Shown in pieces: positions 1,140-10,533 of a stretch of 20,256 bases of DNA; the stretch's first letter is position 1, and each line of letters opens with the position of its first letter. The notes under the pieces are model-generated. The model was not told the DNA's origin, searched no databases, and was given only the letters and a program-made list of their open reading frames with translations. The DNA is from a virus, in the IMG/VR virus record IMGVR_UViG_3300005613_000505, positions 1 through 20,256 of that record. The stretch is one strand, 5' to 3'. The position numbers and the translations under genes were made by a program.

Positions 1140-1161
1140 CGGCAAAACAAACGGCAAAGGA
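1140..1161 (+). repeat. 22-base direct repeat, copy 2 (with 807-828)
   Basis: Exact copy of 807-828. Here it supplies the leader and Shine-Dalgarno of the gene starting at 1168, and it overlaps the 47-base repeat that begins at 1145. Confidence 0.75.
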
Positions 1162-1191
1162 TTAAATATGAATTTAGACAAAGAAACATAC
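1145..1191 (+). repeat. 47-base perfect direct repeat, copy 2: leader, RBS, start and first 8 codons
   Basis: Exact copy of 879-925. It supplies AAAGGA (1156-1161), the ATG at 1168 and codons for MNLDKETY of the 87-aa gene. The identity ends immediately after the TAC codon for Tyr8. Confidence 0.85.
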
Positions 1192-1431
1192 TTAAAAACA
1201 GTTATCCAAATTGATGGAGAAGAGTACACAGAGTGCTTAACTACTCAGGATGGAATCACTTGGGTACACTTTATGGAGGCTATGCTTAGGCAACACTTAC
1301 CAGCAGCAGGGTTCTCCATAGATGGTGGTGATGCTGATAAAATACTATCATACATTGAGGACACTTTAGAGGAGCGTAAGAACTCTATCCTTACTCCTAA
1401 TAAACATGTTAACCCTTATGAATATTATTAA
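1168..1431 (+). CDS. Small acidic protein of unknown function, 87 aa
   Basis: I do not recognise this protein. After the shared MNLDKETY start it reads as a mixed alpha/beta small domain: a strand-like LKTVIQIDGEEYTEC, then a helical region around WVHFMEAMLRQH, then an acidic helix ADKILSYIEDTLEERK, and an aromatic tail ending PYEYY. Acidic residues outnumber basic ones. The start is fixed by AAAGGA six bases before ATG 1168, identical to the gene at 902. It is the last rightward gene before the convergence with the late operon; the terminator hairpin begins only six bases after its stop. The shared leader suggests co-regulation at translation with the 62-aa gene. Confidence 0.75.
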   Translation: MNLDKETYLKTVIQIDGEEYTECLTTQDGITWVHFMEAMLRQHLPAAGFSIDGGDADKILSYIEDTLEERKNSILTPNKHVNPYEYY

Positions 1432-1436
1432 GGCAT

Positions 1437-1469
1437 AAAAAAGAGGGGAAGCATTTCTGCAACCCCTCT
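1437..1469 (-). terminator. Intrinsic terminator closing the leftward late operon
   Basis: Read on the minus strand, AGAGGGG (1469-1463) pairs perfectly with CCCCTCT (1448-1442) over seven base pairs around a 14-base loop, with a possible inner 3-bp TGC/GCA stem. The T-run is six bases (1442-1437, its first base also pairing with the stem). On the plus strand the stem is followed by CTAAAC, so it lacks a U-tract in that direction. It sits between the stop of the last leftward gene (1514) and the stop of the last rightward gene (1431). Confidence 0.9.
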
Positions 1470-1498
1470 CTAAACATTTCAAGTTTTAAACACTTCTA

Positions 1499-1513: not shown

Positions 1514-2524
1514 TTACCAATCACCATCCATTAACCAACCTACAGTATTGTTAACAGGCTTCTTAGGTTTAGGTGTACTAGGCTTAGGAGCTTTAGCAGG
1601 GTTCTTATAACCACTGTCCATACGCTTCTTAGTCATTTGTGTACCTTTACTATTCTGAGGCTTATAAGAGGTTGTCACAGGCTTCTTAGGAGCTTTCACA
1701 GCTTTCTTAGGAGTTACTGTAGACTTCTTAGCAGGAGCTGTTACTTTAGGCTTAACAACCTTACCAGACATTGAACCAGCTTTTGGTTTAATAGCCTTCA
1801 CAGCTTTCTCATTAGCCTTAGTAGACAGTCCTGGTTTAGACTTAGGTAAAGGCATCTGTGTAGTCTTCGTCTTAGTTAAACGGTCTCCATAGATAGCCTT
1901 GTCACCAAATCTGTCCATAGGGGTACTTAACTTACCTGTAGAGGCTAAGTGAGAAGTACGCTCCATACTAGCACCAATTACACCTGCACCTACTGCAACA
2001 AAAGGTGTAGACTTAGCAGCATTCTTAGCAGCAGTTAAAGCTTTTTTAGGTACTACGTTAGCTTTACCCATATTCTTAACACCACGTGTAGGAGAGGTCT
2101 TTGTAACAGCTCTTCCTTTAGTTGTAGCAGGTAACTTCTTACTCTGTACCTTTGTGGATACATTTGAAGGGTTCTTCTTAACAGGTGTTGTTTTAGTTTG
2201 TGTCTTAGGTAAGGACTTAGGTACAGAACCTTTAGGTTTAACCTTCATAGAAGTAGACACTTTGTTTACAATTTTCTTACCACTTCCTGTATCAACAAGT
2301 CTACCTTCATAAGCAGTCTTAGCTACTTTAGAATGAGCTGTACCTCTTACACGATTACCTGTCTTTGTGTCCGATACATAAGAACGCTTCCTGCCATCCT
2401 TGCCTACTTCACTTGTAACATTAACCCTATTAGCTTTTGAGGAAGAGGTCTTTGGCATCTCCTGACCAGTTGCATGAAGCATCTCTCTACCTTTGTTAAC
2501 TCTTCTACTATTTCTACCAGCCAT
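1514..2524 (-). CDS. Histone H1-like, extremely Lys-rich basic protein, 336 aa
   Basis: I know no named phage family for this. By hand count it has about 61 Lys and 16 Arg against about 14 acidic residues, a net charge near +63. Pro, Ala, Thr, Ser and Val fill the rest, in motifs such as TPKKAVKAPKKP and KAPKPSTPKPKKP, which resemble the C-terminal tails of linker histone H1 and bacterial H1-like proteins. A short hydrophobic, Gly-rich stretch lies at about residues 174-186 (PFVAVGAGVIGAS), and the protein ends in an acidic-aromatic tag, GWLMDGDW. Nucleic-acid binding or condensation is the natural inference; cytoplasmic or packaged location cannot be told from sequence. It starts on a TAATG shared with the preceding HNH-like gene, with GAGGA inside that gene's last codons, and is the last gene before the operon terminator. 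An alternative is a disordered, charged virion-internal protein. Confidence 0.6.
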   Translation of the reverse strand: MAGRNSRRVNKGREMLHATGQEMPKTSSSKANRVNVTSEVGKDGRKRSYVSDTKTGNRVRGTAHSKVAKTAYEGRLVDTGSGKKIVNKVSTSMKVKPKGSVPKSLPKTQTKTTPVKKNPSNVSTKVQSKKLPATTKGRAVTKTSPTRGVKNMGKANVVPKKALTAAKNAAKSTPFVAVGAGVIGASMERTSHLASTGKLSTPMDRFGDKAIYGDRLTKTKTTQMPLPKSKPGLSTKANEKAVKAIKPKAGSMSGKVVKPKVTAPAKKSTVTPKKAVKAPKKPVTTSYKPQNSKGTQMTKKRMDSGYKNPAKAPKPSTPKPKKPVNNTVGWLMDGDW

Positions 2525-2829
2525 TATTTACTTCCTCTTTTATTTATTGAACCTTTTGGTCTACCGCCTGTACCACCATTATCAGAACGGTTAGCAGACC
2601 TAGACCTTACTCTTCTATTAGTTGTAGCATTACTTCCACCACTTCTTAGTGGCTTCTTATGGTCTACATCTTTACCATCACCTTTCTTAACTGTGCCCTT
2701 CTTTAAAGCATCTCGTCTAGCTTTATTACGCATAGCTCTTTTCTTCTTCTGCTCAGGAGAGCTGTTATACTTTCTCTGAGCAACTGAACGAGGTTTAGCT
2801 GTAGATTTAGTTTCACCTTTCTTAGCCAT
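2524..2829 (-). CDS. Small basic HNH-like protein, 101 aa
   Basis: About 33 Lys/Arg against 7 acidic residues. A central motif KGDGKDVDHKKPLRSGG (residues 48-64), followed by N71 and N80, matches the layout of HNH nuclease-like ββα-metal folds: D56-H57, an Asn in the helix region, then a final metal-ligand position that is Asn here rather than His. Related small phage proteins with KGDGKDVDH are commonly annotated as hypothetical or HNH-type. The N-terminal half is a Lys/Arg-rich helix (SPEQKKKRAMRNKARRDALKK), which favours DNA binding. The end is disordered and Gly/Lys-rich. It overlaps both neighbours by one base (TAATG at 2829 and 2524). Its place at the end of the structural operon suggests a role in packaging or DNA processing, or a virion component. 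Catalytic activity is uncertain because of the final ligand. Confidence 0.6.
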   Translation of the reverse strand: MAKKGETKSTAKPRSVAQRKYNSSPEQKKKRAMRNKARRDALKKGTVKKGDGKDVDHKKPLRSGGSNATTNRRVRSRSANRSDNGGTGGRPKGSINKRGSK

Positions 2830-4805
2830 TACTTGTTCTCCTTAAGCTCATTTGACAGAGCCTCTGAAAACTCTAACCAATTCTTCTTAGAGTTTTCAGA
2901 CAGCCCTTTTAACTCACCTGCTTGCCATTTGATAGCAGCAACTGCTGGGCTAAGGTCTGTTATAGCTCCAATAGGGTTATCTTCAAACTTCTTAGAGAAT
3001 CTCTCTGTAAGTTCTTCTCCCATACCTGCTACAGAGGCAGTGGCCTTAGCAGCAACCTTAGCAGTTGTCTGAGCTATTGTGTCTCCTTCTGCAACTTCTC
3101 CAGTTAGCCCTGTCATTTGTATGTAAGACTTAATCTGGTCATCAGATAGTTTGACTTTCTTAGCAGCACGTGTGTAGTTAGATAGAGTCTTAATCATAGG
3201 GTCTCTGTTGATATCTAACAAGACCTTCTCATCATACTCACCTTGAAGCTCTACGTTACCTTGAGGTGTAAGTGTTAGTTCAGTATTCTCAAACACTTCA
3301 TTAACATCGTAACCTTTACCTTTAATATTGTTTCTAAGTGAGTTTAGTGCATCTGGTAAAAAGTCTGTTCTAGCACCTTGTTGTAAGTATCTGCTAGAAG
3401 CCTTAATCACATCAGGATTAAAGTCATATTTACCTGTCTCTATCTGTTTAAACATTACATTAGTTTGGTTAAAGTCAACCACGCTCTTATGCCCATTTAA
3501 CAAAGACTCTTCATTCACTGATTTAATAGCTGATACAATCTTTGAAGCAGTTTGATTAGACTGTACCCCTAGCTCTTTATCTGTTCCACCTAGCATTAAA
3601 GAGGCTGTAACAGCAGTAGGTGTAGAGTTAATACTCATTGCTGGCATCTCATCGTAATCAGTTACACCTTCTGACATGCTTGCTAGTACGTTTCTCCCCA
3701 CAAATAAAACTTCATCTTGAAACATCAACGATAACTTTGGGTTGTTTTTCAAAGCATCTGACCAGTTCTCCAACTTAAACTTAGCTTGTCTTAGTTCAGG
3801 GAACTTAGCATGAAACTTTAACTCTGCTGAAGCATTGTCACGTTCTAACCTAGTTGTAACACGTGTAGTTAAGTTTGTAGCTTTAGCCGTTGTCAGCTTC
3901 CCTGTTAACATATCATCAGATAAGCTTGCACGTTTAGCTTTAATAGCATCTACAACTGCACCAACCATGTCCTTACCATTACTAAACTTGTTAAGGTTTA
4001 CATAACGCTGTTGAGTTTGTAGAACTAAACTTGCCTCAAGGCTATCTAAAGCTGTGTTAATTGTATCAGGGTTCTTACCTTTGCTAAGTATATCTAGCAT
4101 CTGCTTCTCAGCCTGTTCAACTAAAGCTGCTGAACCTACTGCAAAGTCTTCTACAGCACCTGTAGGTAATACTGCCATACCTTCATTAAACATCTGCTCA
4201 TATTGACTAGCTTTCTGCTTAACAGACTCCATACGTTGTGCAGCTTCTGTTTTATAAGCAATGTCTAATTCTGAGTCAGTAGGCAACATGTAGTAACCAT
4301 TAGCATTAAGTAACTTAGCTGTCTGGTCACGTACAAACTTAGCCTGTTCAATTTGAGCCTTCTCTGTAGCTGTTTGCTTAAAGTCCCCTTGATTAAATAG
4401 TCCAGCAGATACGTCTTTAGGACTAGCTAAAGGATTGTGTTTAAGTACCTGTGTACCTAGTTTACGTTTAGCTAGGTTAGCTTGGTCAGTAGTTATCTTA
4501 CCACTTGCATGCGCCTTAGCAATCTTTTCATAATTAGCAATAAGCTTAGGGTCTTCTACTCCAGCGATATCTAACTGAGTCTCCCCACCTAGATACTCTT
4601 TACGAGCATATTGTGTAGCACCTGTCTGTACAAAACTAGCTACATCTGTAACTAGATTTGCATTAACTTGCCCTTGTCTTTCAATAGAAGAGGCTGTAAT
4701 TGAACCAGCTCTTGACTCGGCCTCAGCCCTCATTCTGTCACCTTGACCAGCAGAGCCACTACGGTCAGTAGCCCCACCTTGTATAAACTGCTGAAATCCA
4801 GCCAT
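2829..4805 (-). CDS. Putative internal virion protein (T7 gp15-like by place and size), 658 aa
   Basis: I recognise no catalytic motif. The protein is mainly alpha-helical by composition, without cysteines or a clear membrane segment. Its N-terminus, MAGFQQFIQGGATDRSGSAG, is Gly/Ser-rich and is followed by helical, Gln/Ala-rich segments and many Lys/Asp/Glu. The T7 counterpart gp15 is about 750 residues, has a helical core and lines the ejection channel together with gp14 and gp16. Here the gene directly follows the 1500-aa protein, sharing one base (TAATG, 4805), so the order of the two large proteins would be the reverse of T7 if the assignments are right. The Shine-Dalgarno GGGGA lies inside the upstream gene's last codons. 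A different virion structural role is possible. Confidence 0.55.
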   Translation of the reverse strand: MAGFQQFIQGGATDRSGSAGQGDRMRAEAESRAGSITASSIERQGQVNANLVTDVASFVQTGATQYARKEYLGGETQLDIAGVEDPKLIANYEKIAKAHASGKITTDQANLAKRKLGTQVLKHNPLASPKDVSAGLFNQGDFKQTATEKAQIEQAKFVRDQTAKLLNANGYYMLPTDSELDIAYKTEAAQRMESVKQKASQYEQMFNEGMAVLPTGAVEDFAVGSAALVEQAEKQMLDILSKGKNPDTINTALDSLEASLVLQTQQRYVNLNKFSNGKDMVGAVVDAIKAKRASLSDDMLTGKLTTAKATNLTTRVTTRLERDNASAELKFHAKFPELRQAKFKLENWSDALKNNPKLSLMFQDEVLFVGRNVLASMSEGVTDYDEMPAMSINSTPTAVTASLMLGGTDKELGVQSNQTASKIVSAIKSVNEESLLNGHKSVVDFNQTNVMFKQIETGKYDFNPDVIKASSRYLQQGARTDFLPDALNSLRNNIKGKGYDVNEVFENTELTLTPQGNVELQGEYDEKVLLDINRDPMIKTLSNYTRAAKKVKLSDDQIKSYIQMTGLTGEVAEGDTIAQTTAKVAAKATASVAGMGEELTERFSKKFEDNPIGAITDLSPAVAAIKWQAGELKGLSENSKKNWLEFSEALSNELKENK

Positions 4806-7800
4806 TATTTATCCCCTTCAAAAATACTAATGTACTCATCATATAGAGCTTTTTCATTAGGTGTTAAGTCTTTCTCACTAGCTAATTCTCTAAAACGTCT
4901 AACAAGAGTTCCATTGCTTATATCCGCTTCTGGTACATTCTTAACAACATAGTGGATTTGAGTAGCTAGACCCTCATCAACATTTGCACCAAACCTCTTC
5001 ATTTCACTAAGTATTTCCTTACCTGCGTAAGCATAATCAGCTTCTGAGTAAAGTTGTGCAGTTCTCTTTGGTTGAGTTAATTTTATAAACAATTCCTCTG
5101 GAGGTTGCTCACCACTTGATAAGTAAGTCTCAAGAGCTAAGTTAGCTTTGTTATACTCTCTAGCACTTCTACGCATGTCTTGTTCATAGCTCTTCTGTAT
5201 GTCTCTAACACTTGTAGAAATGTCAAACATCTCTTGCTCTTTAACTGTACGCATGCCTACAAGCTTTGCAGCTATCTCTTGAGCAGTAGCTCTACCAGCA
5301 TCTGTACCTGTTAGTGAAAGTAACCTCTCTGTACGTTTCTGTAATAGATATGTTTCAAAGTGGCTAGAACCTGAGTAAACAGTTGCAAGGTTACGTAGTA
5401 TTAAACCTAACTGCTCTTCTGGTGCAATACTTTCATCTAACTCTGTCATTGAGTAGATATGCTTAGTTCTTGTAGCAACATCTGTTACCTTCTTAGCAGC
5501 TCCAAAGAAAGCTCCTCCCATCTCTACTTTACCTTCTAGTAAAGCTTTAACAGGTGCTTCCATAATCTCAAAAGGAGATGTAACAGGGTTGAAGGATGCT
5601 CCATAGTCTACATTAGAGCCATCACCACCTGTGATAAAGTCTCCGAAAGAGTTGAGCACTAAGTTTAGCATACCATCCTGAGCAAGTCCATATACCTCTG
5701 GAGATACATCATCAGCAATTGGGTCAAGAGCTGCATCAATACCAAAACCTGCTGTACCAAATAGTACCAAGTTTGTTCCTGCTACTTTCATACGTTCTGC
5801 TCTAGTCAATGTACCAGAACCTGTAATCATATTAAGAATAGCTTTATGCGGTACTTGTATGAACTGCATAGGAATAGACATAAGTCCTGTTTGATAGCCA
5901 AACTTACCTGCATGGTTCATATTCCATGACAAGTTACGTGCATCACTGGCTAAACTAGACATGCCTGTTTTACTTGTTAAGTCTAATACCTTAGCTTCTT
6001 TCTGTCTTTGGTAAGCAACCATAAAAGAGCCTACCAAGTTATTAAACTCACCTACATCAAAACCATACTTCTGACCATAATGAGGTATTGTTGTAAACAC
6101 TTTCCCTGTTTTAGCTGCTAAGGATTGTCCTAAGTTGTTATACACATCTTTACCAGCCATTGCAAAAGTACGTTCAATCATTGTATTAGAGTGAACAGAC
6201 TCTGCTAAACCAGACTCCTTAAAAGCTTTAAATAAACCTCTAAGTTCTTGCTCCGACATGTTTAACCATTTAGCTTGACTTCTAACAACCTTATCAAACT
6301 TAGACACATCATCTTTAACATGAAACAAAGTACGCATAATATGTACATCTTTAATAAGATTATAAGGATTACGGTACTTAGCAGTTAAAGGCATAACCTG
6401 TATAAGCTGTGAATGTTGTATAACTAACTGTCTAAGGGGTGCAGCAGCAATGAACAAAATATGTGGTAATGTTCTTGCAGCTCTAATTGGGTCAATCTTA
6501 GCTAAGGCTCTAATAGCCTCACCAGTAGTTCCTGACATCTTACCAAGTAGGCCACCTTCTTCAATAGCCTCTGACATATTAAACAAAGCATCTCTGTAAA
6601 TTGTAGAGGCTAGGTTAGTGTTAGCCCCAGACTCCATAGACTCTATGTACTTGTACAAAGCTTTAGCCTCTGCTGTTTTATCCACACCATTAACACGAAT
6701 GTCTTTAACCTCTTCTACACTTCTTGGAAACTTACCTTGTGTTTTAAAGGTCTCATTAAAGTTACCTTTCATTGTAGCAATAGTGTCAAACATTACAGAA
6801 GCGTTAGAAGTAGATGCAGCAGCATTAATCATAGACTCAATAGGGTTTTCAATATTTGCTAAACCATAATTAGAGTCTAAGTCAGTGATACCACTTAACT
6901 GTGCCCCTCTACGTCTTTCTACAGAACGTCCTCTTTCAAAAGCTTTATCAAGTGTGTCTACATCAGACAACTCTTTAGCCCTACGAGGAGTGTTAATTGT
7001 GTACTCTGCATAAGCTTCATCAGCTCTTAACTTACTTACATAACCTAAAGCATCTCCAAACCTAGAACCACTAGCTACAACAGTTGTCTTACCTGTAACC
7101 TTATGCACAGCTTCAACAAAGTAGTCAGTTGTATAGTTACGTTTAACATAACCATCAATCTTTTTCAGTGTTAAGTCAGACTCTTTAACACGTCTACCTG
7201 TCATTGCAGAGTTCTTTAGAACATAATCTGCTCCATCTTCTGCATGTCTAAGCTCATATACTTCATAGCCCATGTCTTTACTAAGTCTTGCATTCGCTTC
7301 CTTAGCAGTCATTGTCTCCTTAGTCTGAGGATTGTATACTTTACCTTTAGCCTCTTTAACAGGTTTACCTAAGTAAATATCCCCTGTCAAGTCATCTGAA
7401 AGTCTGTAGTAATCTTGGCTAATTAACTTTCTATTAAGTGTACGGTTGTCTAAATGATACAGTGTATCCCAGAATCTATATACAGAGTAAACAGCATTTA
7501 CTTCCTTATCTGATAAAGGAGCATGACCATCTACACCCTTCTTTAGTTCTGCTTCTGAGTAATACTTACGCTTCTTATTAGAAGACTCTACAACTGACCA
7601 TGCAGCTTTCTTTTGAGTCTGACCCAAGTCTGCAAAGTCTTTATCAATCATATCAACTAACTTAGCATTTACAGCAGTCTTTCTATCTGCTGCTACACTT
7701 AATGGAGAAGATACTTTAGATTTAAACATGTTTGCAGGGTCTAGTATCCAGTTCGAGAAGTTATTGCCACCAACTGTTAGAATCTTTTGTAGGCTTCCAA

Positions 7801-9307
7801 ACTTAACAGCATCTGCATAAGAAGCTTCACCTTTAGTGTCATATCTCTGTAGTGTGTTAATTTGTGCAATGTATTGACCTTTCTCGTCAGAAGCTAATAC
7901 TTTAGATATATCCTCTTTAGGTACTTCATCAAACTCTTTTGTAATAGGATTACGTTTAAGTAAAGAGATATTATCAATATCTGCACCATAAGGTTCACCT
8001 GCTTTTCTAGCTGTTAAGAAAGCATCTACAGGAGATTTAAAAGGTCTTGAACTACCATTCACTTGGTTAGCAATAGGAACTTTTATAGTCATATATTCAG
8101 AGTCACCAGCTTGCTGTACAGATACTTTCATATCTCCAAACAACACTGCCGTGTCTCCTGCTTCTTGTTCAGCCTTAGCAAGTTTAGCTGCTCTTTCTTC
8201 TGGAGTTAATCTAATACCTGTCTCAGATGATTGACTATAAATATCTTCTTGTAAAGCTTTTCTCTCTCTTTCAGCTTTAGCTAACCCACTAGACATTCCT
8301 TTATTGACTGCATCTAAAGAAGAGCTAGGCATGTGTGTCTCATTAAATACACCTGTACTATCTGTTCCAGAGATGTACTCAGCAGACTGCTTATTAGAGA
8401 TAGAAGCTTCGGCTAAGTTCTCTGCCAACTCGGGATTAATACCTTGTATAGTTTCGATAGGAGACTCAGGAAGAGGTGCTCTAGTCATTGCCTTAGAAGT
8501 ACCAATAGTTCTTGCTATTGACTTTAAACCAGAGCTTACTGCAAAACCTACAGCAGTAGAGTCTAATAGTGTCATAAAGTTACCAAACCACTTATCAAAG
8601 TTTGTCTGACCCTCTAGTACAGCCTCTATTGTAAAAGCTTCTACTAATGTATTCTTTAGTGGGCTATCTTTCAAACCATCAAATAAATCATTGAAGTATT
8701 GGATACGTTCTTTTGGAGGAAGTGCCATAGCATTAGCACGTAGTTCTTCAATCCTGTTACCTTGTAACCAAGACTTAACATCTGCTGCTGACTCTGTCTT
8801 TAAATCTTCTAGCAAAGGAACTACAACTAAAGCTGTGAAGTTTCCTACATCTTCTGTATGTGTTGTACCTGATTTAAACTCTTCAACCTCTTTACGAAGC
8901 TCATGTTTAGCTTGTTCGTAAGTTACTTGCTCATTGAACATTTGGTCAGTATACTCTTTTAGTGACATAGCCTCTTTAGCTAGTACACCAGTAGGTACGC
9001 CTTGTTCAGATTGCAAGTAGTTTTGAACAGCTTTTGTAGCACTCTCTATGTCTTGTGAGTTGTCAATAAGACTCTCTACAACACCTTCTCTGACTTCCTC
9101 ATTAGTTCTGTTCTTAATCTCTGTAAGAGTAGGTGAGTCTCCTTCATTAATATACTCTGAGTAAGTTTGGCTATAGACTTCTCCAGAAAAGTCACCACTA
9201 ATCATACTAGCTTGCCCAGCTTTAATATTAGCCTCTTCATGTGTAACCAAACTGTAGTTTAAAGGTTGTTCATACTTACCAGCATAGGTAACTTCTTCTT
9301 GTTTCAT
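4805..9307 (-). CDS. Giant internal virion / DNA-ejection protein (T7 gp16-like by place and size), 1500 aa
   Basis: This is the largest gene of the window, and its size and position match the giant ejection proteins of short-tailed phages (T7 gp16 is about 1,320 aa). The N-terminal third is acidic and helical. I see no lysozyme or lytic transglycosylase motif at the N-terminus, unlike T7 gp16, so peptidoglycan cutting is probably supplied elsewhere. Hydrophobic or amphipathic stretches occur at about residues 245-262 (LLDSTAVGFAVSSG), 938-960 (LPHILFIAAAPLRQLVI), 1145-1160 (IPMQFIQVPHKAILNM) and 1175-1192 (LVLFGTAGFGIDAAL). These are suited to transient membrane insertion, which is inference. 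The start ATG at 9305-9307 follows AAGGA with a six-base spacer. The gene is 12 bases downstream of the gp14-like gene and its stop overlaps the next start. Confidence 0.7.
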   Translation of the reverse strand: MKQEEVTYAGKYEQPLNYSLVTHEEANIKAGQASMISGDFSGEVYSQTYSEYINEGDSPTLTEIKNRTNEEVREGVVESLIDNSQDIESATKAVQNYLQSEQGVPTGVLAKEAMSLKEYTDQMFNEQVTYEQAKHELRKEVEEFKSGTTHTEDVGNFTALVVVPLLEDLKTESAADVKSWLQGNRIEELRANAMALPPKERIQYFNDLFDGLKDSPLKNTLVEAFTIEAVLEGQTNFDKWFGNFMTLLDSTAVGFAVSSGLKSIARTIGTSKAMTRAPLPESPIETIQGINPELAENLAEASISNKQSAEYISGTDSTGVFNETHMPSSSLDAVNKGMSSGLAKAERERKALQEDIYSQSSETGIRLTPEERAAKLAKAEQEAGDTAVLFGDMKVSVQQAGDSEYMTIKVPIANQVNGSSRPFKSPVDAFLTARKAGEPYGADIDNISLLKRNPITKEFDEVPKEDISKVLASDEKGQYIAQINTLQRYDTKGEASYADAVKFGSLQKILTVGGNNFSNWILDPANMFKSKVSSPLSVAADRKTAVNAKLVDMIDKDFADLGQTQKKAAWSVVESSNKKRKYYSEAELKKGVDGHAPLSDKEVNAVYSVYRFWDTLYHLDNRTLNRKLISQDYYRLSDDLTGDIYLGKPVKEAKGKVYNPQTKETMTAKEANARLSKDMGYEVYELRHAEDGADYVLKNSAMTGRRVKESDLTLKKIDGYVKRNYTTDYFVEAVHKVTGKTTVVASGSRFGDALGYVSKLRADEAYAEYTINTPRRAKELSDVDTLDKAFERGRSVERRRGAQLSGITDLDSNYGLANIENPIESMINAAASTSNASVMFDTIATMKGNFNETFKTQGKFPRSVEEVKDIRVNGVDKTAEAKALYKYIESMESGANTNLASTIYRDALFNMSEAIEEGGLLGKMSGTTGEAIRALAKIDPIRAARTLPHILFIAAAPLRQLVIQHSQLIQVMPLTAKYRNPYNLIKDVHIMRTLFHVKDDVSKFDKVVRSQAKWLNMSEQELRGLFKAFKESGLAESVHSNTMIERTFAMAGKDVYNNLGQSLAAKTGKVFTTIPHYGQKYGFDVGEFNNLVGSFMVAYQRQKEAKVLDLTSKTGMSSLASDARNLSWNMNHAGKFGYQTGLMSIPMQFIQVPHKAILNMITGSGTLTRAERMKVAGTNLVLFGTAGFGIDAALDPIADDVSPEVYGLAQDGMLNLVLNSFGDFITGGDGSNVDYGASFNPVTSPFEIMEAPVKALLEGKVEMGGAFFGAAKKVTDVATRTKHIYSMTELDESIAPEEQLGLILRNLATVYSGSSHFETYLLQKRTERLLSLTGTDAGRATAQEIAAKLVGMRTVKEQEMFDISTSVRDIQKSYEQDMRRSAREYNKANLALETYLSSGEQPPEELFIKLTQPKRTAQLYSEADYAYAGKEILSEMKRFGANVDEGLATQIHYVVKNVPEADISNGTLVRRFRELASEKDLTPNEKALYDEYISIFEGDK

Positions 9308-9948: not shown

Positions 9949-10533
9949 TTATTCCTTTATATAAAAACCATCTGGAACAAAACTATTAAGTAGTCCTTCT
10001 GAAAACTCATACTCTCTTCCAACAATGTCTATTATTAAATGTAACCTGTCCTCTCCATAGTTTCTAACACTATGTGGAACTGTGTTATTAATTTCTACAA
10101 AGTAACCTTCTGTCAGGGTTGCAGAATCTCCACCAACTGTAAACACGCACTCTTTGTTTGTATAGATAGGTAAATGTACTCTGTGAGCAATATCATACCA
10201 ACCGTTGTTATCAATGTGCTCAGGTATTTCTCCACCAGCTTCCATCTTAACTAATAATAAACTTAGAACTTCTACTGACTTATAGTTGTACTTTTCTTTT
10301 AAAGTATCTACCAAATCTTGTAATAATGGATAGTATTTGAAGAAAACTCCTTTATCCATAAATCCTGGAACATCTTCAAGTATATTAAACAAACCTACAA
10401 CAGTTCTTGTACAACATTGAGCACTGTTTGCCTCTCTCATAGATTTCCTGGAGAAGTCTTCTTGTAAAGCTAATTCTTTAATTTTATCAAAGTTTTCAGA
10501 TTCTCCATAGTCTATGAAGTTGTCAGTAATCAT
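9949..10533 (-). CDS. Aspartyl/asparaginyl beta-hydroxylase-like Fe(II)/2-oxoglutarate dioxygenase, 194 aa
   Basis: The C-terminal half carries the family's double-stranded beta-helix signature: HIDNNGWYDIAHRVHLP (H106-x-D108, then R118-H120), then EINNTVPHSVRN with the distal His at 154, then EDRLHLIIDI with Arg163 suited to bind 2-oxoglutarate. H106, D108 and H154 are the likely iron triad. Members hydroxylate Asp or Asn side chains in proteins, or act on small molecules; the substrate here is unknown. The protein is about the minimal length for the domain and has no signal peptide, so it acts in the host cytoplasm or is a virion component. It shares one base with the GNAT-like gene (TAATG) and lies two bases ahead of the gp14-like gene, so it is translated with the virion proteins. 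Modification of a structural protein is possible but unproven. Confidence 0.85.
   Translation of the reverse strand: MITDNFIDYGESENFDKIKELALQEDFSRKSMREANSAQCCTRTVVGLFNILEDVPGFMDKGVFFKYYPLLQDLVDTLKEKYNYKSVEVLSLLLVKMEAGGEIPEHIDNNGWYDIAHRVHLPIYTNKECVFTVGGDSATLTEGYFVEINNTVPHSVRNYGEDRLHLIIDIVGREYEFSEGLLNSFVPDGFYIKE

Follow-up and report, generated by a model that had tools for sequence, protein, structure and literature searches.

Introduction

The DNA of tailed phages is usually thought to be packed almost naked, and to our knowledge few systems, T4 and T7 among them, have dedicated polycationic virion proteins. In T7, the positively charged, unresolved N-terminus of gp7.3 has been located around the end of the DNA within the tail channel, and gp7.3 is ejected (PMC11784390). 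T4 has about 300 copies of each of its basic internal proteins, which bind DNA when salt is low, and many of which are ejected; the internal proteins IPI-IPIII are targeted to the head through a short shared sequence (PMC9026906). Moraphage proteins have also been described as H1-like, and were assigned to the Hc1 family PF07432 (PMC12619734).

Here we analyse a gene for a strongly basic protein in a 20,256-nucleotide stretch of viral DNA (IMG/VR record IMGVR_UViG_3300005613_000505), referred to as the window. A first-pass annotation had described its product as a 336-residue phage histone H1-like protein, and the minus strand does carry an ORF of that length at exactly 1514-2524. What is new here, from sequence comparison, is a homologue in a second phage, in which both the tail charge and a central core are kept, and the occurrence of the same core within a muramidase protein of another phage to which the window is otherwise unrelated. 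The core is strongly conserved, and was missed in the first-pass annotation.

Genomic context

Judging by its TerL, which is 62-65% identical to the nearest records, and by a late arm that converges with the early arm, the window represents the late arm of a short-tailed marine podophage that is Zobellviridae-like. Its gene order is shared with the Zobellviridae CW02, ICP2, RIO-1 and VpV262. The facing early arm contains a ribonucleotide reductase gene and then, at its end, two small ORFs. A 54-nt leader together with the first codons is repeated at 94% before these two ORFs (879-932 and 1145-1198, plus strand), behind the ribonucleotide reductase gene, and there are further copies of AAACAAACGGCAAAGGA.

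The features of the late operon around the basic gene are listed in Table 1. The gene closes the late structural operon, following the genes for internal virion proteins, and has the late structural operon location of the internal or ejected virion protein class. It had been proposed to end the late operon, and this is borne out: from TerL through to the basic gene no gap is larger than 69 nt, and a strong terminator follows directly. None of 200 shuffled sequences was as stable as the terminator hairpin, and the plus strand at this site forms a weaker hairpin. The ATG of the basic gene shares one base with the stop codon of the 101-residue gene upstream.

Table 1 Features of the late operon end in the window. 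G002, the phage with the homologue; L199, the locus with the muramidase protein.
Feature	Position	Strand	Evidence
Terminator hairpin followed by U run, late operon end	1440..1471	-	-20.1 kcal/mol, z -4.07
Gene for 336-residue basic protein, net +62	1514..2524	-	ORF; homologue in G002
C-terminal basic tail, residues 232-336, net +22, acidic/Trp tip last	1517..1831	-	homologue +20
Conserved core, residues 176-231	1832..1999	-	about 80% identical to G002, 56% to L199
Short Gly/Ala/Val-rich hydrophobic stretch, residues 173-187, TPFVAVGAGVIGASM	1964..2008	-	hydropathy
N-terminal basic tail, residues 1-156, net +31	2057..2524	-	homologue tail +32
Shine-Dalgarno sequence AGAGGA, 8 nt 5' of ATG	2533..2538	-	sequence
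101-residue basic HNH-like gene (phrog_4590), directly upstream partner	2524..2829	-	68% identical in G002
658-residue protein, putative internal virion protein	2829..4805	-	position; no family match
1500-residue internal virion protein (IVP-D type)	4805..9307	-	phrog_18427, phrog_12003; tblastn to Zobellviridae

Seeds from the 1500- and 658-residue proteins found no direct relatives in viral contigs. The phrog_4590 family of the 101-residue protein is very common, with at least 548 viral-contig matches, frequently located towards the late-arm end; one member (MW865292) is labelled 'Polyhydroxyalkanoic acid synthase', which looks to be a misannotation. In the interval that separates a GNAT gene from the internal virion protein genes, the window also encodes an Asp/Arg beta-hydroxylase-like protein (9949-10533, minus strand; PF05118, E 1e-12), to which G002 has no match.

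Properties of the basic protein

The protein contains 61 Lys, 16 Arg, 9 Asp and 6 Glu, giving a net charge of +62, one unit from the value of near +63 counted previously. It has a pI of 11.0 and a mass of 35.7 kDa. Among 423 ORFs of at least 100 residues, taken from 11 Zobellviridae records (some of them partial) and the window, it has the highest net charge; the next is +32, and the mean is -6.8 (sd 13.0). A repeat check ruled out a tandem-repeat artefact. Taken together, the charge rank, the lack of a repeat artefact, the AGAGGA sequence, a dN below dS against the homologue (see below) and the terminator argue that this ORF is not a matter of chance.

Both tails of the protein are predicted to be disordered. 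The acidic GWLMDGDW end and the hydrophobic segment in the middle are present as described in the first-pass annotation, although the latter is weak for a membrane helix (Kyte-Doolittle maximum 1.15 in a 19-residue window). The structure models are of low confidence, with pLDDT of 46 from two sequences and 55 for the core from three sequences; these are too poor to search with by fold. Queries with the whole protein against Pfam, PHROGs, NCBIfam, PDB sequences and 50,697 phage records turned up nothing of use, and no hydrolase domain was matched in it.

Pro-Lys-Lys repeats like those of linker histone tails had been noted. The simple repeats are indeed there (PKK 4, KPK 4, PK 13, KP 9), but SPKK is absent and [ST]PKK occurs once. 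Linker histone H1 (PF00538) gave no match at E up to 10, and the low-confidence model has no fold resembling the H1 winged-helix globular domain. Nor was there a family-model match to the bacterial H1-like proteins Hc1 and HC2 (PF07432, PF07382), and the protein is in this respect unlike the Moraphage proteins. On the basis of these searches, membership of histone H1 is rejected. Other parts of the earlier interpretation are supported: this is a late gene with an extreme, conserved charge in a structural operon. Given these three features and the predicted disorder of the tails, the leading reading is a DNA-binding protein that is probably virion-associated or ejected.

The statement that there is no T7-like counterpart is too strong, since gp7.3 offers a precedent in function, although no homology to it was detected. 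It is a protein of 99 residues with a net charge of +10, and its alignment with the 336-residue protein scores 45, as compared to 45.3 ± 6.1 for shuffled sequences; the core profile does not match it. T7 gp7.3 and the T4 internal proteins are functional precedents, neither of them a demonstrated homologue.

Conservation in a second phage

A set of 58 IMG/VR records, many of them fragments, was gathered via TerL and via the 101-residue family. One of the 58 contains a true homologue, of 300 residues (G002, IMGVR_UViG_3300039036_000041, locus L173:1444-2346). It is found in the same position, directly behind the 101-residue-family gene of that phage. Since most relatives in this set, fragments included, do not have it, the basic gene is accessory. 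The local alignment of the two proteins is 57% identical over 192 residues. For comparison, the identities between the two late arms are 69% for TerL, 61% for MCP, 46% for portal, 31% for TTB, 25% for IVP-D and 68% for the 101-residue gene, with no similarity for the 658-residue gene. By this measure, the basic gene and its 101-residue partner (57-68%) rank with the better conserved genes in the late arm.

Conservation is very unevenly distributed along the protein. Alignment of the core region (residues 122-232) scores 398, far above the 37.9 ± 6.5 of shuffled sequences. The N-terminal tail (residues 1-121) is at shuffle level (40 against 43.7 ± 7.6), and the C-terminal tail is modestly above it (99 against 60.6 ± 8.5, best shuffle 101). 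Identity reaches 81% (46/57) in residues 176-232. There dN/dS is about 0.2. For the tails it is 0.4-0.5, with dS close to saturation or past it. In this comparison the most conserved element is therefore a small core and not the histone-like basic part. The core is made up of the end of the hydrophobic stretch followed by SMERTSHL..GKL..PMDxFGDKAIYGDRLTKxKTTQMPLPKSKP; as a motif of about 55 residues it reads as a Gly/Ala-rich hydrophobic stretch and then ASMERTSHLA..GKL..PMDxFGDKAIYGDRLTK. No second copy was found elsewhere in the window.

The net charges of the two proteins agree closely: +62 and +62 overall, +31 and +32 in the N-terminal tail, +9 and +10 in the core, and +22 and +20 in the C-terminal tail. 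Tails drawn independently from a single composition would agree in charge to within 1 in about 9% of cases, and the exact equality is suggestive only. Overall, it is apparently the charge of the tails that is kept, and hardly their sequence.

The core in a muramidase protein

A search with the core profile located one further site, in the protein encoded at L199:8876-11806 (IMGVR_UViG_3300039037_000066), at approximately residues 372-425. This brings the known relatives to two basic homologues and one protein that shares the core only; at the sensitivity used, the core was not found in public phage records or in bacterial and archaeal genomes. The L199 protein is 976 residues long and acidic (net -24), with Glyco_hydro_108 (GH108) and PG_binding_3 domains. 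It adjoins a predicted virion structural protein (phrog_6958), and is itself predicted to be of virion type. Beside it, at L199:15803-19297, is a 1164-residue protein with a weak match to a virion RNA polymerase (phrog_2206, E 7e-5). With the exception of the core and an M15 endolysin, the late proteins of the window have no match at this locus.

In joining a peptidoglycan hydrolase to internal-virion-like sequence, the L199 protein resembles the ejection proteins of the T7 gp16 type. The basic protein, which lacks any hydrolase match, has only the core of about 55 residues in common with it. It is conceivable, though we consider it rather doubtful, that the core is a portable module for virion loading or ejection that podophages fuse to unrelated cargo, the cargo being polycationic tails in the window phage and G002 and a GH108 muramidase protein in the L199 phage. 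If so, the polycationic version would represent an undescribed class of DNA-gripping ejected protein.

Proposed function

Because the core is also seen alongside ejection-type proteins, and because the tails seem to be conserved for their charge, we favour, with a probability of about 0.45, a role for this late gene product as a minor protein of the virion. Its core would serve for docking within the internal ejection apparatus or the tail channel, or else touch the host membrane during ejection. The lysine-rich tails (+31 and +22), if disordered as predicted, would hold DNA electrostatically, either close to the leading end or within the head, and the protein would leave the virion with the DNA. 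DNA binding is likely; virion residence, DNA contact and ejection are what we infer from the sequence features described above.

The same charge, so similar in the two homologues, would also suit a protein that condenses DNA in bulk, many copies neutralising the packaged DNA after the manner of the basic T4 internal proteins, with the core serving only for head targeting. IPI-IPIII differ from the present protein in their size, 8-20 kDa, and in having a prohead protease and an N-terminal targeting peptide that is cleaved. Bulk condensation and an ejection or channel role are not separable by sequence alone. However, the basic part is not the best conserved part, and the core is also present in a muramidase-bearing protein, which makes bulk condensation improbable.

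It is similarly unlikely that the protein acts within the cell and outside the virion, binding the host nucleoid, RNA or phage DNA before packaging, perhaps with the 101-residue HNH-like protein. The overlap of its start codon with the stop of that gene, and the good conservation of the pair, would fit such a role, whereas the position in a structural operon and the core in a virion-type protein speak for the virion.

Cationic disruptins are lysis factors, and a disruptin-like disruption of the outer membrane by this cationic, weakly hydrophobic protein, in place of spanins, is the least credible reading: several relatives do have spanin-type genes at the late-arm end, and the window phage and G002 have no gene between the internal protein gene and the 101-residue gene, but no secretion signal is evident by eye, spanin genes may sit next to the M15 endolysin, beyond the window edge on the upstream side, and the protein is much larger than what we take to be the usual size of cationic lysis peptides.

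Under the favoured reading, that of a minor virion protein with a docking core and DNA-holding tails, a conserved and exceptionally charged protein with a shared core would provide a testable case of how podophages hold the leading end of their DNA or release it. In phages that are as yet unannotated, the core might also mark virion-loaded proteins.

Basic proteins in other related phages

Exact peptide seeds of the 336-residue protein retrieved no relatives from viral contigs, because the seeds differ from the true homologue, and the C-terminal GWLMDGDW, searched as a DNA pattern, gave no match. At the loci checked in other relatives, no similar basic protein was seen near the 101-residue gene. 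Two small proteins of related phages, VpV262p44 (L091:22028-22198) and the product of L177:2860-3126, show no sign of the core and carry short Lys/Pro/Ala-rich tails at their ends. VpV262p44 is the last gene in the late arm of VpV262.
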